Shown: positions 16,340 to 32,254, numbered from the stretch's first letter. The stretch is 64,000 nucleotides of DNA from a virus (IMGVR_UViG_3300007513_000001:1-64000), one strand, 5' to 3'. The notes: generated from the letters alone by a model not told the origin. Numbers and translations are program-made.

Positions 16340-16476
16340 TGTTGCACGATTGGCAAATTGCACTACTGGACCAGGGTCTGTGGCTTTTGCCGACCCTTGG
16401 CGTTCTCGCTCTGGCTGTCTTCCCTTGGAAGCACTGGAACTCTCTCTTTGACGAAATTTTTGAGGTGGCAGAATGA
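16339..16476 (+). CDS. 45-residue membrane protein
   Basis: It starts in TAATG overlap with the previous gene and ends overlapping the first array gene by four bases. One transmembrane helix (LLPTLGVLALAVFPW) is followed by an acidic end. Confidence 0.55.
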   Translation: MLHDWQIALLDQGLWLLPTLGVLALAVFPWKHWNSLFDEIFEVAE

Positions 16477-16682
16477 AAGTCGGTGACTATATCTATGATT
16501 GGGCTCTCGGTAGAAATGGCGTCATAGTCGGTGGCCCATGGGTTGAGCCAGCGGGCTCAGACTCCGAAGCGGCTCATGATTCGCATCGCGACATTGCGTG
16601 GGAATGGGCTATTCTCCAAGATGGTGGCGAGATCCTTGGCGCTGATACAAAAGATTTGAAGGTGATTGATGAATGTAGGTGA
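16473..16682 (+). CDS. MKVGD array protein 1
   Basis: 69 residues, MKVGDYIYDW, acidic, ending IDECR at the 14-base junction. It reads as a small SH3-like barrel: GVIVGG and WAILQDGGEI look like adjacent strands. First true unit of the array. Confidence 0.65.
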   Translation: MKVGDYIYDWALGRNGVIVGGPWVEPAGSDSEAAHDSHRDIAWEWAILQDGGEILGADTKDLKVIDECR

Positions 16683-16866
16683 TGCAGTTAGGTTGAAACG
16701 TACCAACGAGGTTGGTATCGTTGTCAAAAAATACCGTAAGTCTATTCCTGACGGTAACCCTAATGGTGATTTCACGCTTGAATATCGTTGGAATGTACTT
16801 TTTGGTACTGAAACAAGAACGATTAACAATCGCTGGATGTGCGAGGTAGTTAGTGAAAGTCGGTGA
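16669..16866 (+). CDS. MKVGD array protein 2
   Basis: 65 residues from ATG 16669 (MNVGDAVRLKR), basic, ending VSESR. Overlaps both neighbours by 14 bases. Confidence 0.65.
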   Translation: MNVGDAVRLKRTNEVGIVVKKYRKSIPDGNPNGDFTLEYRWNVLFGTETRTINNRWMCEVVSESR

Positions 16867-17113
16867 CTTCATCGAAGTTTATCATCATCTTCCTCGTTAT
16901 GAAGCGGGAAATATTCCGCTTGGTCCGATGGGAAAAGGAATAGTGGTAGATGTAAAGAAGGACGAACCGCCGAGTCCCGTCTTCGATACGATCACTGCTG
17001 TTTCATATCTTACGACTAACGGCGAATTAAAGACAGACTGGATTAATAAAGAATACGGCGGAATTGTTGTGACTGTTAAGATTCTGCAAGAGGCAATTGA
17101 TGATTCTATCTAG
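16853..17113 (+). CDS. MKVGD array protein 3
   Basis: GTG start (codon in AGTGAAAGTCGG), 86 residues, MKVGDFIEVYHH. A GKGIVVDVKK strand pair follows. The C-terminus overlaps the next gene by 14 bases. Confidence 0.65.
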   Translation: MKVGDFIEVYHHLPRYEAGNIPLGPMGKGIVVDVKKDEPPSPVFDTITAVSYLTTNGELKTDWINKEYGGIVVTVKILQEAIDDSI

Positions 17114-17345
17114 GGTTAAGTGGGAAGTGCTCGACTTCATCGGATATGTTTTTTGCGAGGCGTCGTTTCGTTGGTGGAGTATAATGGATGACGGATCTGA
17201 TCTCGAGCAAAAAGTTTATGAGCCTACTTGGAAAGACCGGGTAGTATATTGGATCGGTGTTCCATCTTATAGAATTGGGTGCTTTTTCTACAACCTACAA
17301 GAACCGGACTCCGATCTCCCAAGTTCAACTCTAAAGAGGGATTGA
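17100..17345 (+). CDS. 81-residue protein with amphipathic Trp-rich helices
   Basis: The ATG at 17100 lies in the array junction position but the product does not begin MKVGD. Trp/Tyr-rich segments (FRWWSIMDDG, VVYWIGVPSYRIG) suggest membrane association. The stop overlaps the next start by one base. Confidence 0.5.
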   Translation: MILSRVKWEVLDFIGYVFCEASFRWWSIMDDGSDLEQKVYEPTWKDRVVYWIGVPSYRIGCFFYNLQEPDSDLPSSTLKRD

Positions 17346-17656
17346 TGAAACTAGTAAGAGACCATATACCTGAAATAATAGATGCGGCTGGAAACTGGTG
17401 TCTAACGAGACACGTCCATGGTGTAGACGAACATATAATCATGCTCAGAGAAAAGATAATAGAAGAAACTGACGAGTTTATTAAAGAGCCATCTTATGAA
17501 GAGGCTGCAGATATGTTAGAGGTTTTGCGCGCATTTTTTCACCTTCACGAACTTGATTTTAACATAGTTATTGATGCTGCTGATAAAAAACGAAAAGATA
17601 GAGGCGGTTTTCTAAAAGGTATTATTCTAAAAGAGGTAGGAACAAATGGAAACTAA
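17345..17656 (+). CDS. HisE/MazG-like nucleotide pyrophosphohydrolase
   Basis: The ATG at 17345 follows GAGGG. The 103-residue protein opens KLVRDHIPEII and continues EKIIEETDEF, EEAADMLEVLRAF and a C-terminal KKRKDRGGFLKGIIL. Two acidic helices (ExxE and ExxxD) that bind Mg are typical of the all-alpha MazG/phosphoribosyl-ATP hydrolase superfamily. In phages such enzymes trim nucleotide pools or alarmones. The substrate is not clear. Confidence 0.8.
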   Translation: MKLVRDHIPEIIDAAGNWCLTRHVHGVDEHIIMLREKIIEETDEFIKEPSYEEAADMLEVLRAFFHLHELDFNIVIDAADKKRKDRGGFLKGIILKEVGTNGN

Positions 17657-17873
17657 CCAAGAAATTTTTGAGCTCGCTGGACTCACTCCAGAAGAAGTCA
17701 GTCTTATGCCGGCTTACATAGAAGAAGAAGTCGACTTTTATGGAACTTCAGCATACGAAAAGCTCTATGCGTATTTTGTGATGGAAACAGGTGAAATGCC
17801 GTACCTTACTGCAAAAGCTCGAGACGGAGATCCTGACTTCTGGATTATTGACTGGCTAGCATCGAACGTATGA
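17646..17873 (+). CDS. 75-residue acidic helical protein, unknown
   Basis: It overlaps the previous gene by 11 bases. Very acidic, with the helical pattern LAGLTPEEVSLMPAYIEEE. No family recognised. Confidence 0.55.
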   Translation: METNQEIFELAGLTPEEVSLMPAYIEEEVDFYGTSAYEKLYAYFVMETGEMPYLTAKARDGDPDFWIIDWLASNV

Positions 17874-18079
17874 AGATTGGCGACTTAGTAAAGCTCAGGT
17901 CACCGTGGAAAGTCGGTGGAGCCAGCCCTTCTTGGAAGGAGACAGAAGAAGGAAGTTGGGTTGGGATCGTTATAGACTATCAACGAGGAGAGCCTGTGGT
18001 GTACTGGAATGAAAAATTTCCAAAAGAAATTGAGTACAAAGAGCAGCTCACAGTAGTTGAAGATTATTTTGCAAACTGA
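17870..18079 (+). CDS. MKVGD array protein 4
   Basis: 69 residues, MKIGDLVKLRSPW, four-base overlap with the previous gene. WVGIVIDYQRGEPVVYW gives two clear strands of the barrel. It ends before a short gap with a possible promoter. Confidence 0.65.
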   Translation: MKIGDLVKLRSPWKVGGASPSWKETEEGSWVGIVIDYQRGEPVVYWNEKFPKEIEYKEQLTVVEDYFAN

Positions 18080-18127
18080 AATACAATCTTAATATCAAGA
18101 TTATGATTTTAATATAGGGAGATTTAA

Positions 18128-18322: not shown

Positions 18323-18331
18323 GAGATTATT

Positions 18332-18508: not shown

Positions 18509-18510
18509 TT

Positions 18511-19047: not shown

Positions 19048-19315
19048 TTTAGTAAAGATTAAAGACAATGATTCTGACAAAATGGAAAGAACAACGGGAA
19101 TCGTACTCAAATTAGATTGGCACCACCCAGATAGCAGCGATTCTAGAATGAGAATCGCGGAAGTACTCTGGGACACCGGTCCGGAATGGATAGACGCGTC
19201 TCGTATTGAACTCGTAGATCGCGAACTGAGCATGGATCAACTAGAAAATGTTATAGGGGGGATGAGTTCTGAGAGGTTTGAGATGTGGAAAGTTAATGCA
19301 ATAAATAATGGTTGA
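19034..19315 (+). CDS. MKVGD-like protein with C-terminal helix
   Basis: 93 residues, MKLNDLVKIKDND. TGIVLKLDW and RIAEVLWDTG match barrel strands; the last 30 residues form an added acidic helix. It starts in a 14-base overlap and ends just before promoter P4. Confidence 0.6.
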   Translation: MKLNDLVKIKDNDSDKMERTTGIVLKLDWHHPDSSDSRMRIAEVLWDTGPEWIDASRIELVDRELSMDQLENVIGGMSSERFEMWKVNAINNG

Positions 19316-19348
19316 TTCTGTAAAAAACCTTGCGTAATATGGTATAAT
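19316..19348 (+). promoter_or_regulatory. Family promoter P4
   Basis: TTCTGTAAAAAA (19316) and TATAAT (19343-19348), then ACTACTATAAGG. The 44 bases are nearly identical to P6 at 29566. Confidence 0.9.
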
Positions 19349-19374
19349 ACTACTATAAGGTAAGGAGGATGATT

Positions 19375-19644
19375 ATGGAAATCGTCATTGGCACTAAGGT
19401 TCGTTCTTTTGACTTTCACTACATGCGCGACCTTGAAGGTCCCCGCAGCTGCTACATGGAGGGTATCGTCACCGGAATCGAAAAGATTCGAGGATGCGAT
19501 CGTTACATCATCGCAGTTGACCGCTGCGTATCTGGCGGTAAGGAACTGCCGGCTCAAGAATATCCACCAACCATTATTCCTCCGGTTAATGGAACCCGCA
19601 CTACGATGGGTCGGGTCACAGACGGTGTCGAGGTGATTGCATAA
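19375..19644 (+). CDS. 89-residue protein, first gene after P4
   Basis: ATG 19375 is spaced correctly from AGGAGG; ATG 19369 is too close. MEIVIGTKVRSF followed by alternating strands suggests a barrel-like fold. GC3-rich codon use. Its stop overlaps the next array gene by one base (TAATG). Confidence 0.6.
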   Translation: MEIVIGTKVRSFDFHYMRDLEGPRSCYMEGIVTGIEKIRGCDRYIIAVDRCVSGGKELPAQEYPPTIIPPVNGTRTTMGRVTDGVEVIA

Positions 19645-19808
19645 TGAAAGTCGGCGATTTGGTAAAAGTACAAACAAAGTTTTATGGCACAAAAATCGGC
19701 TTGGTTGTCAAGCACGGAATGGATGGATATTTTATCCAGCCATCTGACCACCCTCGGATGATTATTGCTGGGGCAGAAGATTGTGAGGTGATCAATGAAA
19801 ATCGGTGA
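19644..19808 (+). CDS. MKVGD array protein 6
   Basis: 54 residues, MKVGDLVKVQTKF, with KIGLVVKHG as strand 2, ending VINENR in the 14-base junction. Too short for most gene callers but clearly a family member. Confidence 0.65.
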   Translation: MKVGDLVKVQTKFYGTKIGLVVKHGMDGYFIQPSDHPRMIIAGAEDCEVINENR

Positions 19809-19989
19809 TTTGGTAAAGTGGACTAACGAGTTCAATCCAGACTATTATTCGCATAGTGGAGATGGGCTTGTCATGGACGTCACTCATTATAACGATTCTG
19901 TTGGCACTATTGTAGTCGATGTTTTGGTGAAAGGTAACATACTCCGCTGGAACAGCAAAAGCTGCGAGGTGGTCAATGAAAGTCGGTGA
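19795..19989 (+). CDS. MKVGD array protein 7
   Basis: 64 residues, MKIGDLVKWTNEF. DGLVMDVTHY and GTIVVDVLVKG are strand candidates. Ends VVNESR at the junction. Confidence 0.7.
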   Translation: MKIGDLVKWTNEFNPDYYSHSGDGLVMDVTHYNDSVGTIVVDVLVKGNILRWNSKSCEVVNESR

Positions 19990-20209
19990 TATAGTCAGAC
20001 TTGCGGTGCCGGTGTCTGGGCAAACAGGCCCGATAAACACTGGAGTCGTTTTGAAAACGTTTAAAAAGAAGTGCTGGCGCACTTCCGAGTACGGCCGAAA
20101 GATTGATTGGAATATAATTGAACCTGAGCTGCATGCAGAAGTTTTGATCAACGAAAACATTTTGTCGGTTCCAGCGGTAGAGCTTGAGGTGGTCAATGAA
20201 AGTCGGTGA
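19976..20209 (+). CDS. MKVGD array protein 8
   Basis: 77 residues, MKVGDIVRLAVPV, with a basic loop (KTFKKKCWR) and ending VVNESR. 14-base overlaps at both ends. Confidence 0.7.
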   Translation: MKVGDIVRLAVPVSGQTGPINTGVVLKTFKKKCWRTSEYGRKIDWNIIEPELHAEVLINENILSVPAVELEVVNESR

Positions 20210-20372
20210 TTTGGTGAAACATCTATATTCAGAACGCGGCATGACGGGGGTCATTGTAGAAATCGTGTCATGGAAGCATACTGAAAGCAAAACACCCTTT
20301 GTCTTGTGGGATGATGGTAGAATAGCAAAGGTCCAATGGGGACTTATCGAGGCAGTCAATGAAAGTCGGTGA
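20196..20372 (+). CDS. MKVGD array protein 9
   Basis: 58 residues from ATG 20196, MKVGDLVKHLYS. TGVIVEIVSW and FVLWDDGRI are typical strands. Ends AVNESR. Confidence 0.7.
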   Translation: MKVGDLVKHLYSERGMTGVIVEIVSWKHTESKTPFVLWDDGRIAKVQWGLIEAVNESR

Positions 20373-20541
20373 TTTGGTAAAGTTTACTGCCGGGGCCGCA
20401 TCTGTTGTGAATGCTGGCGTTGTTGTGAATGTTTGGACTATAGCTCATAAGAACAGAGTTCAGTCAGTTGATATTTTATGGGAAGGTAAAATTATCCCAA
20501 GGCTAGTCAACGCAGTTGAGGTGATCAATGAAAGTCGGTGA
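20359..20541 (+). CDS. MKVGD array protein 10
   Basis: 60 residues, MKVGDLVKFTAGA, hydrophobic strands (NAGVVVNVW) and few charges before the ending VINESR. Confidence 0.7.
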   Translation: MKVGDLVKFTAGAASVVNAGVVVNVWTIAHKNRVQSVDILWEGKIIPRLVNAVEVINESR

Positions 20542-20716
20542 TAAATGCAAATACAGAGATTACGATAGCAATGAATGGAAGAACGGAATCATATTGGATA
20601 TTCGCGGTCCGTTTAGTGCAAAAACATATGTTATCACTGGGACCGGTCACTTTACTGGTGAACTAGAAACAAGAACAAGCCACTATGTTACGAGAGCAAA
20701 AAATGAAAGTCGGTGA
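20528..20716 (+). CDS. MKVGD array protein 11
   Basis: 62 residues, MKVGDKCKYRDYD, more polar than its neighbours; GIILDIRG is the second strand. Ends AKNESR. Confidence 0.65.
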   Translation: MKVGDKCKYRDYDSNEWKNGIILDIRGPFSAKTYVITGTGHFTGELETRTSHYVTRAKNESR

Positions 20717-20939
20717 CCTGATTCGGTATAACGCTGCCGATTCTCGTAATAAAACTCTTGGGCTTGTTATCGAGCTGAAGCCTGGATGGCTATTTAATGA
20801 ACCCACGGCTACGATTCAGTGGCTACGAGTAGCGCGATATATGCCTAGAGCGTGTTCAAGAGGCTGGGATGCATCAAAACCAACCCCGGGTGACATATGT
20901 TCTCATCCACAAGGCAGCTGGTTTGAGGTGGTTTCGTGA
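20703..20939 (+). CDS. MKVGD array protein 12
   Basis: 78 residues from ATG 20703, MKVGDLIRYNAAD, with an insertion (~45-65) containing two cysteines before the ending FEVVS. The next junction is the four-base class (GTGA). Confidence 0.65.
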   Translation: MKVGDLIRYNAADSRNKTLGLVIELKPGWLFNEPTATIQWLRVARYMPRACSRGWDASKPTPGDICSHPQGSWFEVVS

Positions 20940-21133
20940 AAATCGGTGATTTAGTAATATACCAGTGGGGAGCTGCGCACGAGCCAAAACACCCAGATGT
21001 AGTTGGGACTGTTTTGAGCTTTCCAGCAGCTTCTCACCCTAAAGAATTTCAAAAAATTGAAGTGTTAACAGAGCATGGAGTGATAGAAAAGTGGGTCATG
21101 CAGTTTTGTAAGGTGATTAATGAATCCAGGTGA
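20936..21133 (+). CDS. MKVGD array protein 13 (GTG start)
   Basis: 65 residues, MKIGDLVIYQWG. VVGTVLSFP and KIEVLTEHGVIEKW form strands. Ends VINESR. Confidence 0.65.
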   Translation: MKIGDLVIYQWGAAHEPKHPDVVGTVLSFPAASHPKEFQKIEVLTEHGVIEKWVMQFCKVINESR

Positions 21134-21323
21134 TCTTGTAAGAAATAAAAACTCTGAAGGCGGAGAACTTGGGATCTTCATAGGCATGCGTACGTTTAAA
21201 CACAACGCTCCCTCAAATCCAGGCGCAGAAGACTACACTTGCGCTGAAGTTTATTGGCCAGAGCGTTCTGGAAAATACGCCGTCGGGACAATCCAAACTA
21301 ATTTGATTGAGGTGGTTTCGTGA
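21120..21323 (+). CDS. MKVGD array protein 14
   Basis: 67 residues, variant opening MNPGDLVRNKN. Strand 2 is LGIFIGMRTF. Ends IEVVS with a four-base overlap to the next gene. Confidence 0.65.
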   Translation: MNPGDLVRNKNSEGGELGIFIGMRTFKHNAPSNPGAEDYTCAEVYWPERSGKYAVGTIQTNLIEVVS

Positions 21324-21550
21324 AAATCGGTGATTTGGTGCAAGTTTCTGATTGTGGAAACGAAAAAACAAGAGATCTTGATTGGGACTGTAATTGTTTC
21401 TTTTGCAAGGGAAACTCAAACCGCATAGGATGTGTTCTTGACGTTGCGACTCGAAATGGTTGGGTGGTTATGTTCGACATCGGAGACTGTAGGCTTGATG
21501 CCTTTGACGAAGCTAACGGAAGAGTGAGGGTGATTAATGAAAGTAGGTGA
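21320..21550 (+). CDS. MKVGD array protein 15 (GTG start)
   Basis: 76 residues, MKIGDLVQVSDCG. Contains CNCFFCKG, a tight cysteine cluster that could bind zinc, unusual for the array. Ends VINESR. Confidence 0.65.
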   Translation: MKIGDLVQVSDCGNEKTRDLDWDCNCFFCKGNSNRIGCVLDVATRNGWVVMFDIGDCRLDAFDEANGRVRVINESR

Positions 21551-21737
21551 CTTGGTTCGCAACAGTTGTGACAGTGGGTATCCACCACAAGAGACTGGTA
21601 TTATTACCAAGTATGTCGAATGGAAAGATGGCGAGACGAGAGATCACCCATATGTTCTATTTGAAGTGCTTTGGGATTCTGGTATTATTAAAAAATGTTC
21701 CGAAAATCAACTTGAGGTCGCCAATGAAGGTCGGTGA
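21537..21737 (+). CDS. MKVGD array protein 16
   Basis: 66 residues, MKVGDLVRNSCDS, with EVLWDSGIIKK as a late strand pair. Ends VANEGR. Confidence 0.65.
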   Translation: MKVGDLVRNSCDSGYPPQETGIITKYVEWKDGETRDHPYVLFEVLWDSGIIKKCSENQLEVANEGR

Positions 21738-21912
21738 TTTGGTAAAAGTTACGCTCCCAAGCAACAGCTTTTTAGATGGAAAAATCGGAACAGTTGTATT
21801 ATCTGAAAAATATCAAGATCCCATATATGGTATTTGTATTTTAATCGATGAAAAAGTGTACGGGTTTAAAGAAAATGAAATAAAGACAATCAATGAAAAG
21901 GAGTTAAAATGA
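21724..21912 (+). CDS. MKVGD array protein 17
   Basis: 62 residues from ATG 21724, MKVGDLVKVTLPS. GKIGTVVLSEKYQ and GICILIDEKVYGF are strands. It overlaps the following acetyltransferase gene by four bases. Confidence 0.65.
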   Translation: MKVGDLVKVTLPSNSFLDGKIGTVVLSEKYQDPIYGICILIDEKVYGFKENEIKTINEKELK

Positions 21913-22352: not shown

Positions 22353-22354
22353 TC

Positions 22355-22555
22355 ATGAAAACCGGAGATCTAGTTCAGCACCACCCTTTCGGCAGTAAAG
22401 ATGAACACATCAAAGCTATTTACGAAGAGCACGATGCAGACTTTAGAATCGGGCTAATCATAAAAGAGCGAGAATCATTTCGTTTAGTCTCTCCCGAGAA
22501 AGGAAAACCCGCGTGGTATCAAGTAGAAGAACTAAAAATAATTAGTAAATCTTAA
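22355..22555 (+). CDS. MKVGD array protein 18
   Basis: 66 residues, MKTGDLVQHHPFG. IGLIIKERESF is the second strand. Ends KIISKS and is not followed by a junction. Confidence 0.6.
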   Translation: MKTGDLVQHHPFGSKDEHIKAIYEEHDADFRIGLIIKERESFRLVSPEKGKPAWYQVEELKIISKS

Positions 22556-22664
22556 ATTTAACCATGTACACCTGGGCATTCGTGATTATCTTTTAATAGC
22601 TGGAAGAATTGCCTAATGGGATTCTAACAGCGCAGTTACTCGCTTACAAAAAAAGGAGGAAAGC

Positions 22665-23099
22665 ATGACTACTGCAATTACACGCGTTGGCCCGGGACTT
22701 TTGGGCAGCAACGTTTTTGATACAATTTTTGACAGCTTCGTCACTGACATGCCACAATATGTACGGCAGTCTACCCAAGGTTACCCTGTTGCTGACATCT
22801 ATACTAATGAAGATGGGATGACAGTAATGGAATTTGCCTTGGCTGGATTCTCGCGGAGCGAACTTAACGTAGAAGTTAAACCAGAAGTTCGCAGCATTAC
22901 TATTTCAGCGCAAGCCGAAGGTGATAGCTCGAGTCCGTCTGGTCGGCGCATCGCTCGTCGATCTTTCACGAAAACTTTTGTGAATTATGATGATGATCTA
23001 GATCTCACGAGCGCTGAAGCTACGTTTGAAAACGGGTTGCTGTCGATCGTTGTTCCCCGTAGACCCGAAACGCAACCGGTTAAAATTAAGATTTTTTAG
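22665..23099 (+). CDS. Small heat shock protein, Hsp20 / alpha-crystallin family
   Basis: 144 residues after a strong AGGAGG. N-terminal FDTIFDSF, then the alpha-crystallin domain (~40-135: ADIYTNEDGMTVMEFALAGF, ELNVEV, RSFTKTF, LLSIVVPRR) and a C-terminal I-x-I type end (VKIKIF). Hsp20 proteins hold unfolded proteins; T4-like and marine phages also carry them. It is followed by a strong terminator. Confidence 0.9.
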   Translation: MTTAITRVGPGLLGSNVFDTIFDSFVTDMPQYVRQSTQGYPVADIYTNEDGMTVMEFALAGFSRSELNVEVKPEVRSITISAQAEGDSSSPSGRRIARRSFTKTFVNYDDDLDLTSAEATFENGLLSIVVPRRPETQPVKIKIF

Positions 23100-23123
23100 T
23101 AATCTTTTCTCTGGTTTAAATTG

Positions 23124-23153
23124 CAAGCGGGTTTAAAAAGCCCGCTTGTTTTG
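23124..23153 (+). terminator. Intrinsic terminator of the Hsp20 gene
   Basis: CAAGCGGG (23124-23131) pairs with CCCGCTTG (23141-23148) around the loop TTTAAAAAG, followed by TTTTG. A perfect eight-base stem. Confidence 0.88.
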
Positions 23154-23161
23154 TATATAAT
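23132..23161 (+). promoter_or_regulatory. Promoter whose -35 lies in the terminator loop
   Basis: TTTAAA (23132-23137) in the loop of the preceding terminator and TATAAT (23156-23161) have the 18-base spacing of the promoter family. It leads to the gene at 23221. Confidence 0.65.
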
Positions 23162-23220
23162 GATTATGACCGTGGCGAATGCCTCAAAGACATTGATATG
23201 CGTTTAATAAAGGAGAGTGA

Positions 23221-23532
23221 ATGTCTAGAAAAAATATCCACCGTGCTGGACCGTATAAGAGAGAAGAAGTTATTGTTGGTTTTAGAAAAGAAGAAGATGA
23301 AACTTTTACAAAGATAACAAAAATCATGTCTCGTGATTGGAAAACTGGGGGGATTAAAAACCAGAAAAAGAAAAAGCCAGTCGAAGAGGGTCCATATGAA
23401 CTAGCGACCGTTGAAGATTATGATGAGAAAATGAACTATCAAGACATAGACGGCACTGAGCTATCGATATATTTTAAAAAGGTTGGCGATTTTAAAAGAG
23501 TAGAGATTGATGAGCCAGAGGAAGATGAGTGA
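23221..23532 (+). CDS. 103-residue charged protein, unknown
   Basis: ATG after AAAGGAG. Very charged, with a Lys run (NQKKKKPVEE) and an acidic end (DEPEEDE). Segments such as KREEVIVGFRK and ELSIYFKKVGD look like strands. No family recognised. Confidence 0.6.
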   Translation: MSRKNIHRAGPYKREEVIVGFRKEEDETFTKITKIMSRDWKTGGIKNQKKKKPVEEGPYELATVEDYDEKMNYQDIDGTELSIYFKKVGDFKRVEIDEPEEDE

Positions 23533-23786
23533 AAGTAGGAGATTTAGTTAAATACAGAGGCTGGTCTCATAATGCTAGTTTCGAGCATGTTTCACGAAGT
23601 CGCGACCCTTTGGCAATAGTGGTCCAGACTCGTGCAGAAGATTCAGAATATCATAAAAGAATTAGGGTTATGTGGGTGGGAGAAGAAATCCCGATTCAAG
23701 CTCAAGTAGTTTCTACAAACGGAAATAGGTTTAGTAGCTGGTGCTCCCCTAAATATTTCCACGTTGTTAGTAAAAAAGGAGATTAA
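23529..23786 (+). CDS. MKVGD array protein 19 (GTG start)
   Basis: 85 residues, MKVGDLVKYRGWS. PLAIVVQTRA and RIRVMWVGEE form strands, with a longer polar C-terminal half. Four-base overlap with the previous gene. Confidence 0.65.
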   Translation: MKVGDLVKYRGWSHNASFEHVSRSRDPLAIVVQTRAEDSEYHKRIRVMWVGEEIPIQAQVVSTNGNRFSSWCSPKYFHVVSKKGD

Positions 23787-23787
23787 A

Positions 23788-23946
23788 ATGAGAGATTTTA
23801 TTTATTCTAAGCACTTTAGTGCTGGTTTAGCTTTGCTAAATGGTTATTTTTGCATTCAATCTCTAAACCATAGCCAGTGGGGTTGGGCTTTTTTAAGCGG
23901 CGCGTTCTGTTGGCTGTGCATAGACAATTGGCGGCGGTCGGGATAA
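23788..23946 (+). CDS. 52-residue membrane protein
   Basis: ATG 23788 follows AAAGGAG; one or two hydrophobic helices (GLALLNGYFCIQ and WAFLSGAFCWLCI) and a basic end. The stop overlaps the next start by one base. Confidence 0.5.
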   Translation: MRDFIYSKHFSAGLALLNGYFCIQSLNHSQWGWAFLSGAFCWLCIDNWRRSG

Positions 23947-24248
23947 TGTTTAAGTGGATTAAACATCGACTAATGCATAAGTTGCAGCATGTGAGCTGGT
24001 CATCAATTAAGAAAACTTTTAAAGAGCATGGATTGGCTCTTGTTGTCATCATAGTTGGGTGGGAAATTATTGAAGATGTTGGATTTCCACTGCTTTTTAT
24101 ATTTCTTGGAAACCACGTTCACCCTGTTTTTTATACTGGCGCGCCGGCAGCATGGCTACTCTGCCTTCATTGGTTGATGGTGCCCTTAACGTGGAAATGG
24201 TGGATTAAAATCAGCGGTGAAAAAAATGAATCTAGGCGACTTAGTTAA
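23946..24248 (+). CDS. 100-residue membrane protein with two to three helices
   Basis: ATG 23946. A basic N-terminal helix, then LALVVIIVGWEII, FPLLFIFLG and WLLCLHWLMVPL. The C-terminus ends NESRRLS, encoded by the region of the next start. Function unknown. Confidence 0.55.
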   Translation: MFKWIKHRLMHKLQHVSWSSIKKTFKEHGLALVVIIVGWEIIEDVGFPLLFIFLGNHVHPVFYTGAPAAWLLCLHWLMVPLTWKWWIKISGEKNESRRLS

Positions 24249-24426: not shown

Positions 24427-24635
24427 ATGCGATAATCGACCTTCACGGAATAAAGCACGAAGATGTTACAAGCGTTATGATTGATGCGTGTTCTAAGTAC
24501 GATATTCCTTTTGTGGTGATAACAGGACAATCCTCTAGAATGAAAAGGATTGTTCGTTTCGCAGTGGCAAAGTTCAATCTTTCGGCGAGAGACGCTATTG
24601 ACAATCCAGGCAGGTTGATAGTGGAGGATCGATGA
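24423..24635 (+). CDS. Smr-domain-like protein
   Basis: 70 residues: IIDLHGIKHEDVTSVMIDAC gives the DLHG motif and first helix, FVVITGQSSRMKRIVRFAV the glycine-strand/helix part, and NPGRLIVE the final strand. This is the Smr (MutS2 C-terminal) nuclease-like fold in minimal form. The usual HGxG is replaced by TGQS. Confidence 0.65.
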   Translation: MNAIIDLHGIKHEDVTSVMIDACSKYDIPFVVITGQSSRMKRIVRFAVAKFNLSARDAIDNPGRLIVEDR

Positions 24636-24868
24636 AGACCGGCGATTATGTTCAAGTCCGCGAAGGAGTCCATGATGATCAAATGCCCAATAAGCGCCGA
24701 GATGGGCTAATTGTAGAAATGGTAGGTCAATATGGGTGGAATAGAGATCCAGATCAAGTGATGGTTATGTTCTCCAATGGAGCTTTTCTTAAATTTCACG
24801 TTTCACAAATCGAAGTGATTAGCGAAGGTCAGCAACAACTACCAAAGAACAAAAAAAGAGAAGATTGA
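24632..24868 (+). CDS. MKVGD array protein 21
   Basis: 78 residues, MKTGDYVQVREG. DGLIVEMVGQ and VMVMFSNGAF are strands; a Lys/Arg-rich tail follows. Ends just before promoter P5. Confidence 0.6.
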   Translation: MKTGDYVQVREGVHDDQMPNKRRDGLIVEMVGQYGWNRDPDQVMVMFSNGAFLKFHVSQIEVISEGQQQLPKNKKRED

Positions 24869-24873
24869 GTTAA

Positions 24874-24906
24874 TTCTGTAAAAAAGTGCTTCCGATATGG
24901 TATAAT
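24874..24906 (+). promoter_or_regulatory. Family promoter P5
   Basis: TTCTGTAAAAAA (24874) and TATAAT (24901-24906), spacing 18, then ATAATATAA. Precedes the 55-residue gene at 24931. Confidence 0.85.
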
Positions 24907-24930
24907 AATAATATAATCAAGGAAGAAACA

Positions 24931-25098
24931 ATGGAAGAAAAAGAATGGGGATCAATCGAATACCCAATCATTCTAGGCTATACCAAGCCTAATGGTGAGA
25001 AGTATAAAGTGGTAATTCATAACTCAGATCAGTCCGAATATGAATATGATAAGATGTTTGAGTTGTGTGGTGAAGATGTACCATTCAGTGTAGATTAA
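24931..25098 (+). CDS. 55-residue protein, first gene after P5
   Basis: ATG 24931 follows AAGGAAG. MEEKEWGSIEYPI, acidic, strand-rich; unknown. The next array gene starts nine bases after its stop. Confidence 0.6.
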   Translation: MEEKEWGSIEYPIILGYTKPNGEKYKVVIHNSDQSEYEYDKMFELCGEDVPFSVD

Positions 25099-25106
25099 GG
25101 TGATCA

Positions 25107-25286
25107 ATGAAAATCGGTGATTTGGTTCGCACCCCGGAGGGTAAGCTTGGCATTATTGACAAGTACTACCCAAACTGGGATGACTCTAGCAAAGCCAGTT
25201 ACCCATGGTATGTGAGTATCATGCCTGACTGGAGTGTTGAATACTTCAGAACAGGACAACTCGAGGTGATCAATGAAAATCGGTGA
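25107..25286 (+). CDS. MKVGD array protein 22
   Basis: 59 residues, MKIGDLVRTPEGK. KLGIIDKYYP and YVSIMPDWSVEYF are strands. Ends VINENR in a 14-base junction. Confidence 0.65.
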   Translation: MKIGDLVRTPEGKLGIIDKYYPNWDDSSKASYPWYVSIMPDWSVEYFRTGQLEVINENR

Positions 25287-25428
25287 CATGGTTAGGTTTA
25301 AGGACCTGGAGAAAAGAACTGGCGTATTACTCGAATACGGCGCGTTTTCTGATGGTTGGTGGTCTATTCTGGATTCTGATGGACAGATGGTTGTCTGGCC
25401 AGAATCCCAACTTGAGGTTATCATATGA
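25273..25428 (+). CDS. MKVGD array protein 23
   Basis: 51 residues, MKIGDMVRFKDLE, the shortest clean unit: TGVLLEYG, WWSILDSDGQMV, LEVII. Four-base overlap with the next gene. Confidence 0.65.
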   Translation: MKIGDMVRFKDLEKRTGVLLEYGAFSDGWWSILDSDGQMVVWPESQLEVII

Positions 25429-25637
25429 GACTCGGTGATGCAGTAAAAATAACAAAGCCAAAGCTTTATCAGCAGAATCTGATAGACGTGGTCGGAATTA
25501 TCGTAGAGCATTTCCCTCAAAGAGATCCACCTTACCCTCCTGGAAAAGCTATTTGTAGAGTCTTTTGGCCAGATGGAAGCGTCGATAAAACTTGGCGCCT
25601 GTGTAAAGAGCTGGAGGTAATCAATGAAAGTCGGTGA
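25425..25637 (+). CDS. MKVGD array protein 24
   Basis: 70 residues, MRLGDAVKITKPK. VGIIVEHFP and CRVFWPDGS are strands. Ends VINESR. Confidence 0.65.
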   Translation: MRLGDAVKITKPKLYQQNLIDVVGIIVEHFPQRDPPYPPGKAICRVFWPDGSVDKTWRLCKELEVINESR

Positions 25638-25848
25638 TCTAGTCATAATGCCAGGAGAAACACTTGCAAAGGTTTCCGGAAAACATAGCATAGGGCTTGT
25701 TGTTGCTGATGATTATGACAAAGTTGCGCCTAGTCGCGTTGCTGGTCGAAAGAAGTCAAGAATCGGTATCATGTGGACAGACGGCAGTGGACGTGTGGAT
25801 TATGAGCCCAGAGATTGGCTGGAGGTGATTAGTGAAGAAAAACTATAA
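25624..25848 (+). CDS. MKVGD array protein 25
   Basis: 74 residues, MKVGDLVIMPGET. SIGLVVADDY and RIGIMWTDGSG are strands, with a basic loop between. Ends VISEEKL. Confidence 0.65.
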   Translation: MKVGDLVIMPGETLAKVSGKHSIGLVVADDYDKVAPSRVAGRKKSRIGIMWTDGSGRVDYEPRDWLEVISEEKL

Positions 25849-26161
25849 ATTTGTAGAATTTAAATCTGGTTTTGGAGTTAGCATTCAAGCTAACTCTAGT
25901 AACTATTGCGAGCCTCGAAACGACGAGGGTCCCTACACCGCGGTGGAGCTCGGTTTTCCAAGCGCTGAGGACTCTTTAATTATCAAATATGCTGAAAATA
26001 AAAGTGAGCCGACAGAAACAGTTTATGGCTGGGTGCCTGTTGGTGTAGTGAAAGCGCTCATGATTAAACACGGCGAAGTTATAGCAGGCACGATGCCGCC
26101 ATTTAACATGAACATAGAGCAATCAGCAATTTTGGCGGAGGCTTTACTAGATGAAAATTAG
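25832..26161 (+). CDS. 109-residue protein, unknown (GTG start)
   Basis: MKKNYKFVEFKSG, alpha/beta with a C-terminal helix (NIEQSAILAEALLDEN). Overlaps the previous array gene by 17 bases and the zincin-like gene by 11. No family recognised. Confidence 0.6.
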   Translation: MKKNYKFVEFKSGFGVSIQANSSNYCEPRNDEGPYTAVELGFPSAEDSLIIKYAENKSEPTETVYGWVPVGVVKALMIKHGEVIAGTMPPFNMNIEQSAILAEALLDEN

Positions 26162-26489
26162 AAACTCTATTTTAGATAATCAGACTATCGTTGTTGAAAT
26201 TGAAAATGGAGACACGGGAGAAGCAGTAGATTTGTTGAATATTAAAAAGAATGGCTATGCAGTTTTTGGCGACAACGTAGAGTTGCCGATAGCAGTAATT
26301 GATGGAAGACTTCGAAACGAAGATTGGTTTACCGATAATCACCTCTTAGCAATCGAAGCTCATGAGCTCGGACATATTCTTACAAATTCAGAAAAAGAAC
26401 CCGTGGCTGAACGAAAAGGTATTCGCTTGCTTGACTCCGCGGGTTATATTATTGCTGCAAACATTTTACGCGATAGAGGCATTGCATGA
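26151..26489 (+). CDS. Small zincin-like metalloprotease
   Basis: 112 residues. EAHELGHILTNSEKEPVAERKGI (split as HELGH near residue 77 and a downstream E in VAERKG) gives an HExxH zinc site with a following acidic ligand. The N-terminal half is beta-type. Possibly a host-protein protease; no signal peptide. Confidence 0.65.
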   Translation: MKIRNSILDNQTIVVEIENGDTGEAVDLLNIKKNGYAVFGDNVELPIAVIDGRLRNEDWFTDNHLLAIEAHELGHILTNSEKEPVAERKGIRLLDSAGYIIAANILRDRGIA

Positions 26490-26665
26490 AGGTGGGTGAT
26501 TTGGTTACTGATAATCGCATCGCGCCATTTACGGTTGGTTTGATCGTTGGGTGGTATGATACACCCAAAGGCGTAGTGAATGTCGCTTGGTGGCAGCGTG
26601 GAAAGCTAATTTCTACCGCCCCGTGTCATATATCTAAATTAGAGGTGTTGAGTGAAAGTCGGTGA
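26486..26665 (+). CDS. MKVGD array protein 26
   Basis: 59 residues, MKVGDLVTDNRIA. VGLIVGWYDT and VNVAWWQRG are strands. Ends VLSESR; four-base overlap before, 14-base after. Confidence 0.65.
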   Translation: MKVGDLVTDNRIAPFTVGLIVGWYDTPKGVVNVAWWQRGKLISTAPCHISKLEVLSESR

Positions 26666-26828
26666 CCGAGTAAAAATAGCTCCTATGTGGAAGTACGAAG
26701 AAGCTCGGGGGAATATTATTAAGATAACGAAAGAATACACTGTGGTTTCTTGGGACGGGGTGAATGGTGAATGGCATTATACGAAGAAGCAAGCGGATAA
26801 AATCCAGGTGATTAATGAGCACGCTTAA
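26652..26828 (+). CDS. MKVGD array protein 27 (GTG start)
   Basis: 58 residues, MKVGDRVKIAPMW. TVVSWDGVNG is a strand-turn. Ends VINEHA, showing the junction with a different downstream gene. Confidence 0.65.
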   Translation: MKVGDRVKIAPMWKYEEARGNIIKITKEYTVVSWDGVNGEWHYTKKQADKIQVINEHA

Positions 26829-27135
26829 TAAAATCTGGGCTTGGATGAACGAGCACAAATATTTTTCAGTTTTTGGATCTGGAGTCATCATTGACTTTTG
26901 GGCAAACTGGTATTCCTATGCTATTGTTCACGATTGGATAGTGCTACAAGCGGTGTTGGGGTTTTTCTTGCCAATTATGAATTTTCCATTTATTCACTGG
27001 TTTATTGATGAAAAGGATATTGCGGAAAGGTTTAAATTGTGCCTTTGCAGCGCATTTGCAATGGTTCTTGGTTCGACATTGATGTTGCTGATGATTAGAG
27101 AAGGGATTGGATTGGGCACGGATGCAATTCCATGA
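26815..27135 (+). CDS. Membrane protein with three predicted helices
   Basis: 106 residues: YSYAIVHDWIVLQAVLGFFLP, then FPFIHWFID and LCLCSAFAMVLGSTLMLLM. It uses the 14-base junction although it does not start MKVGD, so the junction is not tied to that protein family. Confidence 0.6.
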   Translation: MSTLNKIWAWMNEHKYFSVFGSGVIIDFWANWYSYAIVHDWIVLQAVLGFFLPIMNFPFIHWFIDEKDIAERFKLCLCSAFAMVLGSTLMLLMIREGIGLGTDAIP

Positions 27136-27326
27136 AAGTCGGCGATCTAGTAGTTAGAAAAAAATGGGATACTATAGAACACAATCCAACAAAGACAGAC
27201 GGTGAGATTGGTATCGTCATCGAATCTGGCGTTTACGTTGGAAGGAAAGATGTCAAGGTGGCATGGTCAACAGAGATCAGTACAGAAAAAAGCCACAAGC
27301 TAGAGGTGGTCAATGAAGTGCGGTGA
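27132..27326 (+). CDS. MKVGD array protein 28
   Basis: 64 residues, MKVGDLVVRKKWD. IGIVIESGVYVG and VKVAWSTE are strands. Ends VVNEVR. Confidence 0.65.
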   Translation: MKVGDLVVRKKWDTIEHNPTKTDGEIGIVIESGVYVGRKDVKVAWSTEISTEKSHKLEVVNEVR

Positions 27327-27504
27327 TATGATAATGATTCGAGGAGAAAATATTTGGCGTGAAGTTTGTGGAGAAATATATAAGCCAATCTATTGCATAG
27401 GGTTTTATCCTGGCCCGAATCATCTGGCCGCTATAGAGGTTTATGATGGCGCCACAGCTAGAGAAGTTAACGTTGAAGAAATAATTAAATTGGAGAAAAA
27501 ATAA
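27313..27504 (+). CDS. MKVGD array protein 29
   Basis: 63 residues, MKCGDMIMIRGEN; more hydrophobic and Cys-containing. Stop overlaps the next start by one base (TAATG). Confidence 0.6.
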   Translation: MKCGDMIMIRGENIWREVCGEIYKPIYCIGFYPGPNHLAAIEVYDGATAREVNVEEIIKLEKK

Positions 27505-27701
27505 TGAAAGCGGGAGATCTTGTAATGTTTATTGACGAGGGCACATATGCTAAGTGGTTCTTTGGGAAGATGGCTATCGTTGAAAAAGCTACGCCAGGAA
27601 AAAGAAGTTGCCGTGTTCGGTGGCTTGAGCCTGTGAAATATTTTGATAGATATACCACCATATCAGATTTCGGGTGGGATAGCTTTGAGGTGTGCGATTG
27701 A
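27504..27701 (+). CDS. MKVGD array protein 30
   Basis: 65 residues, MKAGDLVMFIDEG. FGKMAIVEKATPG and RVRWLEPV are strands. Ends FEVCD. Confidence 0.6.
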   Translation: MKAGDLVMFIDEGTYAKWFFGKMAIVEKATPGKRSCRVRWLEPVKYFDRYTTISDFGWDSFEVCD

Positions 27702-27882
27702 ACTTCTTCTTAAGGTGGTAGTTTGGAGATTAATCTCTATTTTGATCACTCTAGCTGTGATGTTTGGACTAACTGGCGATATTAAATCTGCTACGGGTTT
27801 CACTATATTTTTGCATATTTTACTAACTGGGGCTAACTATGGATTTGAAAAATATTGGCAACGAAGATTTGAGGGTCGGTGA
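27685..27882 (+). CDS. DUF2061-like two-helix membrane protein
   Basis: The start is uncertain (TTG at 27685, within the end of the previous gene). VVWRLISILITLAVMFGLTG (split: WRLIS..., LTGD) followed by TIFLHILLTGANYGFEKYWQR matches the short DUF2061 membrane family. About 65 residues. Confidence 0.5.
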   Translation: MRCAIELLLKVVVWRLISILITLAVMFGLTGDIKSATGFTIFLHILLTGANYGFEKYWQRRFEGR

Positions 27883-28072
27883 CCTGGTAATGTATACACC
27901 TGAAGCGGCCTATAACCTTGATAGGAGTGGCGAGACTGCTTTGGTTGTAGAGACTAATATAGATATGTGGGGAGAAGAGATGATTCCCTCTGGAGTAAAG
28001 CTGCTATGGTCCGATGGAGAGTTTGAGACAGCATATTCAGATGAAGTTTTTTCTGTGAACGATTCTCAATAA
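27869..28072 (+). CDS. MKVGD array protein 31 (TTG start)
   Basis: TTG at 27869 gives MRVGDLVMYTPEA and keeps the invariant 14-base overlap; an ATG 30 bases upstream is possible. TALVVETNID and VKLLWSDGE are strands. 67 residues. Confidence 0.55.
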   Translation: MRVGDLVMYTPEAAYNLDRSGETALVVETNIDMWGEEMIPSGVKLLWSDGEFETAYSDEVFSVNDSQ

Positions 28073-28122
28073 ACGTTATATGTAATTTATAGTGGTCTCT
28101 TTTGTCCCCCGGGAGGCGCCTT

Positions 28123-29159: not shown

Positions 29160-29162
29160 CTA

Positions 29163-29530: not shown

Positions 29531-29565
29531 ACTAAAAGCCCTGTTATTCAAATAAAAATAATTTA

Positions 29566-29598
29566 TTCTGTAAAAAACCTTGCGTAATATGGTATAAT
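29566..29598 (+). promoter_or_regulatory. Family promoter P6
   Basis: TTCTGTAAAAAA (29566), TATAAT (29593-29598), then ACTACTATAAGG. Almost identical to P4. Confidence 0.9.
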
Positions 29599-29624
29599 AC
29601 TACTATAAGGTAAGGAAAGAATCA

Positions 29625-29981
29625 ATGGCGCGCAAACGACGCAACGACAGAAATCACGTCATCTACCTCCTCACCGGTCCCACCGGTCAGAGATACGTGG
29701 GAGTTACCTTCGCACGAGGACGAGCTTGGAAACGATCTGCTAAGATTCGATGGGAAGCCCACGTTCGAAATGCTCTCGATTACGATCGTCAAAATCTCTT
29801 GAGCGTTGCAATCCGTGAGCATGGTGCTTCGAACTTCTCACGTGAAGTTTTAGAAATTGTTCGAGGAAAGCAGAACGCTCACAATCGAGAGAGGGAGCTC
29901 CTCCAACTCATCCAACCCGAGCTTAACATGGAAGGGATGGGACGTAAAGTTAACAGCGCACAGCGCGAGGCGGTAGCATGA
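29625..29981 (+). CDS. GIY-YIG nuclease-like protein, first gene after P6
   Basis: 118 residues. HVIYLLTGPTGQRYVGVT (~11-28) is the GIY-YIG region, with IYL/YVG in place of GIY/YIG. WEAHVRNAL and the following helix, then an ERELLQLIQPELN end as in this superfamily's catalytic Glu and Asn region. GC3-rich. These enzymes cut DNA in homing, repair or defence; no recombinational context is visible. Confidence 0.72.
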   Translation: MARKRRNDRNHVIYLLTGPTGQRYVGVTFARGRAWKRSAKIRWEAHVRNALDYDRQNLLSVAIREHGASNFSREVLEIVRGKQNAHNRERELLQLIQPELNMEGMGRKVNSAQREAVA

Positions 29982-29987
29982 AAGTCG

Positions 29988-30077
29988 GTGATTTGGCTCC
30001 TTGTTTGTCTCATTGCAGAAATACTACTCTGGTCTCTGGTTTTTGGCGGAATATTCGCCGCGGCTCTTCTCTTCTAG
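29988..30077 (+). CDS. Possible 29-residue membrane peptide in an alternative frame
   Basis: GTG at 29988 inside the junction string gives one continuous hydrophobic helix (IWLLVCLIAEILLWSLVFGG) ending TAG at 30075. The overlapping MKVGD frame is unlike a barrel here, so this frame may be the real one. Confidence 0.35.
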   Translation: MIWLLVCLIAEILLWSLVFGGIFAAALLF

Positions 30078-30085
30078 GAAAAAAA

Positions 30086-30475
30086 ATGGCTCTTCAATTT
30101 TCTGATCAATCTTTTCTCGCAGACGTTTCTTCTCCAGCAGCTACCTCTCAAGGTGATGGCGCTGTTCTGGTTCCTCTCTCGGTTTTTGGAGACTCTCCTC
30201 CAGATTCGGTTTCAGTTGTAGATTTTGCTGGTCGAGAAGTTTCGTTTGTTCTTTGTGGTCGTACGTATTTTACGGATTCGGCCGCAGGTACTGAGGTTTT
30301 CGCTGGTTGGTCTTATTGGGAAGATGAAGCCTCGGATTATCCTGGCTCTCCAGCCGTTCAGTTGTTTGTTCTTTCTCCTGATTTCGCGGAAGCTGATTAT
30401 CGTGAGGTTTATGATGGCTGGGAAGAAGCTAAAGAGTTTGAGGTCGTCGAACCCGCGGGAGAGGTAGCGTCATGA
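30086..30475 (+). CDS. Acidic beta-rich protein, unknown
   Basis: ATG 30086 preceded by AGGAAA; the frame is also open from ATG 29978 (MKVGDLAPC), which would add 36 atypical residues. The 129-residue product is acidic and strand-rich (GAVLVPLSVFG, REVSFVLCG, AVQLFVLSP). No family recognised. Overlaps the next array gene by four bases. Confidence 0.55.
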   Translation: MALQFSDQSFLADVSSPAATSQGDGAVLVPLSVFGDSPPDSVSVVDFAGREVSFVLCGRTYFTDSAAGTEVFAGWSYWEDEASDYPGSPAVQLFVLSPDFAEADYREVYDGWEEAKEFEVVEPAGEVAS

Positions 30476-30660
30476 AAGTCGGAGATTTGGTAAAGTTCAG
30501 ATGCAACAAGGCGCATTTTGACCGTGCGTACCTGATAATAGAAATCGAAGTTCTTCCCGAAAGAGGAACATTTGTTCGCCTTGTCGGTGATGGACCATCG
30601 GCTTCCGCGCCGATGCCAGTTCAACAATTTCCCTCTTGGCGCTTGGAGCGTGTAGCATGA
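30472..30660 (+). CDS. MKVGD array protein 32
   Basis: 62 residues, MKVGDLVKFRCNK. YLIIEIEVLP and FVRLVGDG are strands. Four-base overlaps on both sides. Confidence 0.65.
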   Translation: MKVGDLVKFRCNKAHFDRAYLIIEIEVLPERGTFVRLVGDGPSASAPMPVQQFPSWRLERVA

Positions 30661-30857
30661 CAGCCGCCGATTGGATCAAGGCAATTAACGAAGCAGAGGG
30701 CAACGAGGTTCTGCGCTTGTGGAATGAATGCCTTAATAGATGTTGTGACAATGAAGCCGACGAGATTACACTCGCGGTTCACAAGGCTTGCGTTGATAAA
30801 GTCTTGAATACAATTGGATTTCCAAGAGACGCGGAGGCTATCAATGAAAGTCGGTGA
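30657..30857 (+). CDS. 66-residue helical protein, unknown
   Basis: MTAADWIKAINEAEGNEVL with several cysteines, ending AINESR at a 14-base junction. It is an all-helical protein placed inside a barrel array. Confidence 0.55.
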   Translation: MTAADWIKAINEAEGNEVLRLWNECLNRCCDNEADEITLAVHKACVDKVLNTIGFPRDAEAINESR

Positions 30858-31020
30858 TGTAGTCAGACTCTGCTCAAACAATTATCCTCAATACAAGGAT
30901 AAAATCGCTATGCTTATGTGGACACACACTCCGCAGGCGTGGGTGGTGCTAGTAAACCAGAAGCTCCATCCTTACGTTGTTCATGAAGATGACATGCGAG
31001 GACTCAATGAAAGTCGGTGA
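30844..31020 (+). CDS. MKVGD array protein 33
   Basis: 58 residues from ATG 30844, MKVGDVVRLCSNN. IAMLMWTHTP and WVVLVNQKLH are strands. Ends GLNESR. Confidence 0.65.
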   Translation: MKVGDVVRLCSNNYPQYKDKIAMLMWTHTPQAWVVLVNQKLHPYVVHEDDMRGLNESR

Positions 31021-31228
31021 TTTGGTAATTGTTAATGTGCCTATCGACTGGAACACCGTCCACCCAGAGTCATGTCACGGCGTGATTGTAGACAAGAAAG
31101 TCGTCCGCGAGAACGACGGTATCGACGTAAAAAATCGGACTTGGTTTTATGTCTTGCGTAGTGATACGGGAACTATTGAAAATTTTCACGAAGACTGGCT
31201 GGAGGCAGGAAAAAATGAAAGTTGGTGA
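31007..31228 (+). CDS. MKVGD array protein 34
   Basis: 73 residues from ATG 31007, MKVGDLVIVNVPI. HGVIVDKKVV and WFYVLRSDTG are strands. Ends GKNESW. Confidence 0.65.
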   Translation: MKVGDLVIVNVPIDWNTVHPESCHGVIVDKKVVRENDGIDVKNRTWFYVLRSDTGTIENFHEDWLEAGKNESW

Positions 31229-31403
31229 TATGATTAAGATGGCAACATCCTACCGAAATGACCTGAACCGTCTTGGACTGCTAGTTAGAATCGGTAGACG
31301 ACATAATAACCGACGCGTTGGCACGGTCTTGACAGCCACCGGTATTGAAACGTGGCCACTAGATTCTCATTACGAATACGAGGTGATTAGTGAAAAAAGG
31401 TGA
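31215..31403 (+). CDS. MKVGD array protein 35
   Basis: 62 residues from ATG 31215, MKVGDMIKMATSY. Arg-rich (RIGRRHNNRRVG) and basic, unlike most units. Ends VISEKR. Confidence 0.65.
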   Translation: MKVGDMIKMATSYRNDLNRLGLLVRIGRRHNNRRVGTVLTATGIETWPLDSHYEYEVISEKR

Positions 31404-31692
31404 TCTGATATCTCAGACCCGGCGACCGGGTGGCTTTTGTACCTTAGTAGAGATATTCAAATCGGAAGAAAGCTACGACGAATCAGACCATGGTTGGACA
31501 GAATATTGTTGGCCAATCTTCCGAGTTGTTCACCCAGCTGAAGGTTTGATCGATGACCCCTCTTATTATTACTGCACTTTAGAAGAACAAGAAGCTTTTG
31601 AAAGGAGACACTTGAAATATTTGTTGCAAAAAGAAGGAGCTGCAGTTCCTGATTGGCTAGAAGAGGAGATTGAAAACGATGCAAATCGGTGA
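31390..31692 (+). CDS. MKVGD array protein 36, long form (GTG start)
   Basis: 100 residues, MKKGDLISQTRRP. Barrel core plus a C-terminal acidic helix (FERRHLKYLLQKEGAAVPDW, ~73-92). 14-base overlaps on both sides. Confidence 0.62.
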   Translation: MKKGDLISQTRRPGGFCTLVEIFKSEESYDESDHGWTEYCWPIFRVVHPAEGLIDDPSYYYCTLEEQEAFERRHLKYLLQKEGAAVPDWLEEEIENDANR

Positions 31693-31837
31693 TTTGGTAA
31701 AATTTAGAGCGTCCGGACAAACCGTCCTCTACCTTGGATTAATAGACGAGATGTACACATTTTATCATGCTAAGTTCGGCCTTGTGGAACTCTGGGAGCA
31801 GAGGTTTGATATTAGCAAAGTAGAGACAGTAAAATGA
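31679..31837 (+). CDS. MKVGD array protein 37
   Basis: 52 residues from ATG 31679, MQIGDLVKFRASG. YLGLIDEMY and GLVELWEQ are strands. Four-base overlap with the next. Confidence 0.65.
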   Translation: MQIGDLVKFRASGQTVLYLGLIDEMYTFYHAKFGLVELWEQRFDISKVETVK

Positions 31838-32007
31838 AAGTCGGTGATCTAGTCCAAATAGTCAAAACTAGCAAACTAGAAATGGGCGTTCTCATTGAAA
31901 GATATATTCTACACGCTGAATATCGATTTGATGTTTTGCTAGAAAGTGGAAAGATAGCTAAAGGGTTGCCTATAACTTACATAAAGGTAATCAATGAAAG
32001 TCGGTGA
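31834..32007 (+). CDS. MKVGD array protein 38
   Basis: 57 residues, MKVGDLVQIVKTS. MGVLIERYIL and FDVLLESGKI are strands. Ends VINESR. Confidence 0.65.
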   Translation: MKVGDLVQIVKTSKLEMGVLIERYILHAEYRFDVLLESGKIAKGLPITYIKVINESR

Positions 32008-32254
32008 TTTGGTAAAAATGAAAAAAGGGCACTCTCCGCCAGGCGTCATCGTAAAAATCGATAAAGATTTCTACGGCGCTCGACAAGCATTTAAAGTTTC
32101 AAAAGTAGATCGTGGCAAGTGTATTCGACCAAACATGGTTAATATTATTGCGCCGACAAAAGATGGGATTCGACATCGTCTTTTAATCTGCTGGCCAGAC
32201 GTCGGATTTTCTTATGAATATAGCTCCGATGTAGATGTGATAAATGTTCAATAA
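31994..32254 (+). CDS. MKVGD array protein 39, last of the main array
   Basis: 86 residues, MKVGDLVKMKKGH. PGVIVKIDKDFYG and HRLLICWPDVG are strands with a basic insertion between. Ends 12 bases before promoter P7. Confidence 0.65.
   Translation: MKVGDLVKMKKGHSPPGVIVKIDKDFYGARQAFKVSKVDRGKCIRPNMVNIIAPTKDGIRHRLLICWPDVGFSYEYSSDVDVINVQ

Follow-up and report, generated by a model that had tools for sequence, protein, structure and literature searches.

Several kinds of short repeated element at gene borders have been described in phages, and they provide the background for a gene array in IMGVR_UViG_3300007513_000001:1-64000, the first 64 kb of a 293,409-bp viral contig. This stretch of 64,000 nucleotides is referred to as the window. 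In the array, small genes whose products begin with MKxGD (units) follow one another and are joined by a short string, ATGAAAGTCGGTGA, that closes the upstream gene in one frame and opens the next gene in another. The junction with its start, stop and Shine-Dalgarno (SD) sequence is called the seam. The promoter early stem-loops (PeSLs) of T4-type phages were reportedly described originally by Arbiol et al. in 2010 and Comeau et al. in 2014. According to PMC4503421, PeSL cassettes comprise an intergenic promoter and a stem-loop and are proposed to shuffle genes between related phages. The array resembles them in having a short element repeated between small genes of T4-like phages and in the gain, loss or reordering of genes at that element between relatives. 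However, the repeat of the array is itself coding, in two frames that overlap, and the seams show no conspicuous promoter or terminator. Since the promoter and stem-loop were looked for and not found there, the array was classed apart from the PeSLs; the promoter-like repeats of the window listed in Table 1 are nearer to PeSLs than the seams are.

Integrons use an integrase and attC sites to join their cassettes, which are likewise small exchangeable genes arrayed in one direction; the seam of the array, however, is coding. In lambdoid phages, short conserved boundary sequences at module borders have been proposed as places of exchange (cited in PMC3029335). The array likewise has homology at gene borders, which coincides with the borders of exchange, but its border also carries a start, a stop and a ribosome site. 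The array border is moreover repeated dozens of times per genome, and a unit could therefore move to many places. The Start-Associated Sequences of cluster K mycobacteriophages are likewise repeated at translation starts, but they lie upstream of the start, whereas the array repeat extends over the SD into the first codons, and the available text of PMC3203893 shows no shuffling at them. Gene pairs translated by termination-reinitiation are also co-directed, with a short overlap and the SD inside the upstream gene; such pairs mostly overlap by 4, 1 or 8 nt and more rarely by a greater length (PMC6728339, PMC10666635), whereas the overlap in the array is mainly 14 nt. In prokaryotes at large, 4-nt overlaps outnumber those outside -8 to +6 nt at least 10-fold (PMC10666635), so the 14-nt form is unusual. 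The array was filed as repeat-bordered phage cassettes, new in lying within the overlapping frames of a long paralogous series. A literature search returned nothing on MKVGDLV and nothing describing such an array.

Gene cassettes that can be interchanged within a lineage of T4-like phages, at a seam bearing start, stop and SD, probably make up the array. The virus is a large bacterial one, and about 40 MKxGD-type starts were found in the window from tables of open reading frames (ORFs) and junction listings. The exact 14-mer ATGAAAGTCGGTGA occurs 12 times in the 293-kb record, always on the + strand and always between 16473 and 32007, and the reversed string, used as a control, has no copy. 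When up to 3 mismatches were allowed, there were 42 matches in the window versus 6.75 expected. Nine of the 12 exact strings lie in a 14-nt overlap (19976, 20196, 20359, 20528, 20703, 25624, 30844, 31007 and 31994). The other three, 16473, 29978 and 31834, have a 4-nt ATGA overlap, but 16473 is ambiguous, as its overlap can also be read as 14 nt if a small alternative ORF is taken as the upstream gene. An automated rule gave 23 MKxGD-type starts with a 14-nt overlap, or 22 after dropping 25425, which is better taken as a 4-nt overlap because the upstream MKIGD gene ends at 25428. The 4-nt overlap, [AG]TGA, is the second common junction type, with about 12 MKxGD starts in the window.

These counts modify the original prediction, which had been made from the sequence of the window. 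It had proposed about 25 junctions at which the TGA of the string closes one gene and its ATG opens the next; the pattern was recovered, but the number is about 22 with the 14-nt overlap and fewer with the exact string. The reading of the string in two frames, as NESR-stop and MKVGD, was borne out by the junction listings. The string had also been said to join genes outside the family. At 26815 the 14-nt overlap is present but the string is not, ATGAGCACGCTTAA standing in its place, while at 30844 the string does close a gene from outside the family, one that begins at 30657 and ends in ...EAINESR-stop. Both the SD (GGAGGT) in the last codons of the upstream gene and the 4-nt junction type had been overlooked.

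A single pattern scan of IMG/VR, with a pattern that contained GGT, retrieved at least 118 stretches, and removal of near-identical replicates left 112 contigs for counting starts and overlaps. This search of metagenomes placed MKxGD units in more than 110 IMG/VR contigs among the matches listed. Again among the matches listed, the 112 contigs hold 860 MKxGD starts, of which 495 overlap the upstream gene by 14 nt and 157 by 4 nt; an SD-like motif accompanies 430 of the 495 14-nt overlaps, and two TGAs are present in 651 of the 860 starts. The TGA at offset 1 of the string (ATGA) gives the 4-nt overlap and the one at offset 11 (GGTGA) gives the 14-nt overlap. With a TGA in both other frames, the string ends every upstream gene that does not share its frame; 78% of units versus 20% of other genes have such a pair of stops within 14 nt. 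The consensus of the 14-nt class is GGAGGTgATcA-ATGAAAGTCGGTGATTTGGTaAa, and the upstream protein ends in LEV-I/V-N/S-E-S-R, since the SD and the next gene's start make up its last codons. GGT, which creates the second stop, is retained at 71 of 117 first-stop starts, which the retrieval pattern cannot have favoured, while the GGT share of glycine codons in unit bodies is 30%. All units point the same way (558 versus 0 opposite).

Exchange was evaluated from between-locus DNA blocks of at least 80% identity. The left ends of these blocks fell within -20 to +10 of unit starts in 82% of cases versus 13% expected, and the right ends within -5 to +35 in 80% versus 17% expected. Identity falls from about 0.9 inside a shared unit to about 0.3 outside, with a base-level step at both seams. 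A solo-sharing test was applied to unit pairs 80-97% identical with both flanks readable. Unrelated neighbours on both sides were found for 31 of 47 unit pairs, not all of them independent, compared with 9 of 55 other small genes taken from simple gene calls (p=5e-7). Over all identities there were 33 solo pairs, from 23 locus pairs and 24 unit families, and single units with unrelated neighbours reached 97-100% identity. In the window, unit 31215-31403 and its counterpart in locus L027 (Table 1) carry different string variants at both ends and have unrelated neighbours, and the helicases of the two phages are 61% identical. Similarly, the core of unit 25273-25428 is 88% identical to a unit of L106 and the neighbours are unrelated.

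The order of shared units is scrambled as well. Ten units shared by L040 and L109 gave a tau of -0.11 with 0 of 6 adjacencies kept, eight shared by L042 and L076 gave a tau of 0, and five shared by L106 and the window gave a tau of -0.2. Order is kept between near-identical phages and also in some more distant pairs. No close relative of the window covering the array was found; the nearest relative, L127, is uninformative on the array because its record begins at about 39 kb of the window and its far end holds none. The comparison of relatives thus shows exchange and reordering at the seams rather than a fixed order with no exchange at junctions. The shuffling of gene cassettes put forward in the original prediction is supported by block ends at unit starts, solo-shared units and scrambled order in independent genomes.

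A mechanism can be proposed with the cassette taken as the stretch between successive start codons. The first 14-20 bases of a cassette (ATGAAAGTCGGTGATTTGGT) encode MKVGDLV, end the preceding gene and provide a TGA in both other frames, and its last codons (LEV-I/V-N/S-E) supply the SD for the following gene. As the upstream gene is closed and the downstream start given a ribosome site, nearly any cassette could follow any other. The seam of about 30 bp, alike among cassettes, would then allow general recombination to exchange, insert, delete and move single cassettes between co-infecting phages. Homologous recombination, for which the genome has a RecA-family gene, may be the agent, with the string itself driving exchange by homology. 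With slightly less than even confidence, the start string can further be proposed to be a selected universal port, in which stops in both other frames, an SD from the end of every cassette and recombinable likeness would make the syntax of translation and that of recombination one sequence. On this further reading, T4-like phages would have a cassette system without a dedicated enzyme, keeping a shared and fast-changing pool of SH3/KOW-like host-interaction proteins. The joints are visible, dozens per genome and in more than 100 contigs, and they allow a direct test of whether short border homology drives exchange. They would also offer a natural design for gene strings of swappable parts, each of which retains its start, stop and ribosome site.

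Several observations weigh against the cassette reading or parts of it. Two random seams share only short exact runs (median 9 nt, 99th percentile 23 nt) and over 33 nt are 71% identical. Roughly 30 bp is cited as needed for RecA and Red recombination (PMC2327257). With runs this short, the exchange may depend on annealing or on homeologous recombination, or the effect may be due in part to selection at gene borders. Non-unit genes also have block ends near gene starts, though less than units do: outside the arrays the values were 44% for left and 45% for right ends, with 8% and 10% expected. All contigs compared are metagenomic, and some are fragments. Finally, a folding comparison found no special RNA structure at the junctions (z = +0.24), which argues against coupling by the opening of a hairpin and leaves termination-reinitiation or plain SD initiation. 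Coupling of the RNA hairpin type was rejected, the junction RNA not being specially folded.

The possibility was considered that phages join DNA illegitimately anywhere and that selection retains the joins at gene borders, the string being conserved for the protein start, the stop and translation and not for recombination. The prevailing view puts most mosaicism of phages down to illegitimate recombination (PMC3029335), and the block ends of other genes near gene starts, at 44% versus 8% expected, also speak for it. However, the arrays have about twice the frequency of block ends at starts and about four times the rate of solo sharing. GGT is also over-used even where its stop is unneeded, for which the history of the cassettes could also account. 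This explanation is the most serious of the alternatives but was judged unlikely. A site-specific recombinase acting on the string in the manner of an integron would fit a short fixed site and units that all face one direction. The site nevertheless lies within two coding frames, no inverted repeat was seen in it by eye, and string variants are retained on both sides of exchanged units; judged by these features of the site, a recombinase of this kind is very improbable.

That the units arose in each lineage by tandem duplication and divergence of one gene, with the junction merely inherited, is suggested by the one predicted fold and the start common to all of them; tandem paralogues often arise so. 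With the seam-encoded ends removed, however, pairs of at least 40 bits had a frequency of 0.00094 within genomes versus 0.00119 between genomes, and there were 3 intra-genome DNA pairs versus 129 between loci. Single units up to 97-100% identical amid unrelated neighbours also speak against duplication, which was given little credence. Local tandem duplication was rejected as the main source of units because those of one genome are not closer than those of different genomes; the arrays look as if each had been drawn from one shared pool. The scrambled order could also be an artefact of metagenome assembly at repeated seams, considering that the records are metagenomic and that some arrays are near contig ends (L058). 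Yet the seam repeats are short, usually under 30 nt, the shared units are often 82-95% and not 100% identical, and scrambling recurs in many independent assemblies; an artefact is hardly credible.

The original prediction also saw the string as a device for translational coupling. The anatomy of the junctions makes it plausible that translation is coupled, whether through termination-reinitiation or through SD initiation, namely the SD inside the upstream gene, the fixed short overlap and the few candidate promoters within the array. Consensus scans gave 49 promoter-like sites versus 36 expected and 19 terminator-like sites versus 15, with no series of either at the seams. The promoter-like repeats probably split the array into four operons. 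They have a conserved spacer, are at most 94% identical between copies and are present in the relative L166 too; they may act as promoters. The repeat may itself be mobile, as a regulatory element of the PeSL kind. Further copies were observed in the window at 13417, 41048, 42509 and 44338.

An alignment of 76 units was used to predict the structure of the unit protein, which gave a five-stranded small barrel with a pLDDT of 92. The fold matches in the PDB were Tudor, CAP-Gly, PetP and the C-terminal domain of UvrD, none with E<1e-3. Profile matches were weak and were to uL24 and the KOW domains of NusG and Spt5, the best PDB profile having E=0.0056 (NusG); Pfam KOW matched 2 of the 76 members weakly. 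A search of the units against Pfam and PHROGs gave no firm family. The units are thus predicted to be SH3/KOW-like barrels, and their products may be diversifying host-interaction proteins.

Judged by its genes, which include a Gp23-type capsid, an S77 prohead protease and a RecA-family recombinase, the phage is T4-like. A Gp23-type capsid 46-77% identical to that of the window phage was found in 8 of 20 array records tested, and the records without one are possibly fragmentary. By capsid, even the closest phages that have names are distant (Microcystis phage Mel-JY01, Flavobacterium immuto phages and Rhodothermus phage RM378). No named relative was found in INPHARED by DNA or by unit protein, and no record there matched either of two units tried. 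Among GTDB contigs, 31 stretches matched the pattern, most with a single match. One contig, NHDW01000006.1 (305,838 bp; L141 and L152), is binned as Methylococcaceae TMED69 and has four pattern matches; it may have been misbinned and be the genome of a phage.

Table 1. Coordinates of the array and of associated features in the window.
Feature	Position	Strand	Remarks
First MKxGD run (16473, 16669, 16853)	16473..17113	+	14-nt overlaps at 16669 and 16853
Longest unbroken MKxGD run, 12 units	19644..21912	+	Joins: nine 14-nt, two 4-nt
Looser part of array, MKxGD units 22355, 23529, 24226, 24632 amid other genes	22355..24868	+	
Third MKxGD run (25107, 25273, 25425, 25624, 26486, 26652, 27132, 27313, 27504, 27869), other genes interspersed	25107..28072	+	
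Non-family gene, 14-nt overlap with preceding unit kept, string not	26815..27135	+	
GIY-YIG endonuclease-like gene, 4-nt overlap with string at 29978	29625..29981	+	
In-frame fusion of the exact string and MKVGDL start to a body without the family pattern	29978..30475	+	
Last MKxGD run (30472, 30844, 31007, 31215, 31390, 31679, 31834, 31994)	30472..32254	+	Six 14-nt overlaps
Unit 97% identical to a unit of L027	31215..31403	+	Identity does not extend past either junction
Promoter-like repeat (TTCTGTAAAAAA...TATGGTATAATA), ahead of first probable operon	15884..15940	+	blastn repeat
Promoter-like repeat, second probable operon	19301..19366	+	blastn repeat
Promoter-like repeat, third probable operon	24869..24934	+	blastn repeat
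Promoter-like repeat, fourth probable operon, 94% identical to the 19301 copy	29552..29616	+	blastn repeat
Promoter-like repeat after end of array	32251..32310	+	blastn repeat

The endonuclease-like gene at 29625 matched the PHROG homing endonuclease with E=6e-6, and its Pfam GIY-YIG match was below the cut-off. The gene that follows it has an internal ATG at 30087, preceded by AGGAAAAAA, as a possible start of its own, and is perhaps a foreign gene captured at a seam. Cargo genes amid the units (22665-23099, 28311-29159 and 21909-22352) include an HSP20-like protein (22665-23099), a methyltransferase and a possible acetyltransferase, the last below the Pfam cut-off.

Elsewhere in the window, the gene at 44413-45831, near an AAA-type ATPase (42615-43694), matched PHROG 1314, which is labelled 'HNH endonuclease'. 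Its sequence reads as a metallopeptidase/vWA-type protein, and the label may be wrong. Additionally, two sets of otherwise unlike ORFs, at 1340-4313 and 48986-56239, have the common N-termini MNLLREYIRELLSE and MKITKRQLRRIIREE. These N-termini resemble the T4 capsid-targeting sequences that are cut by the prohead protease, and the genome has the S77 protease gene.

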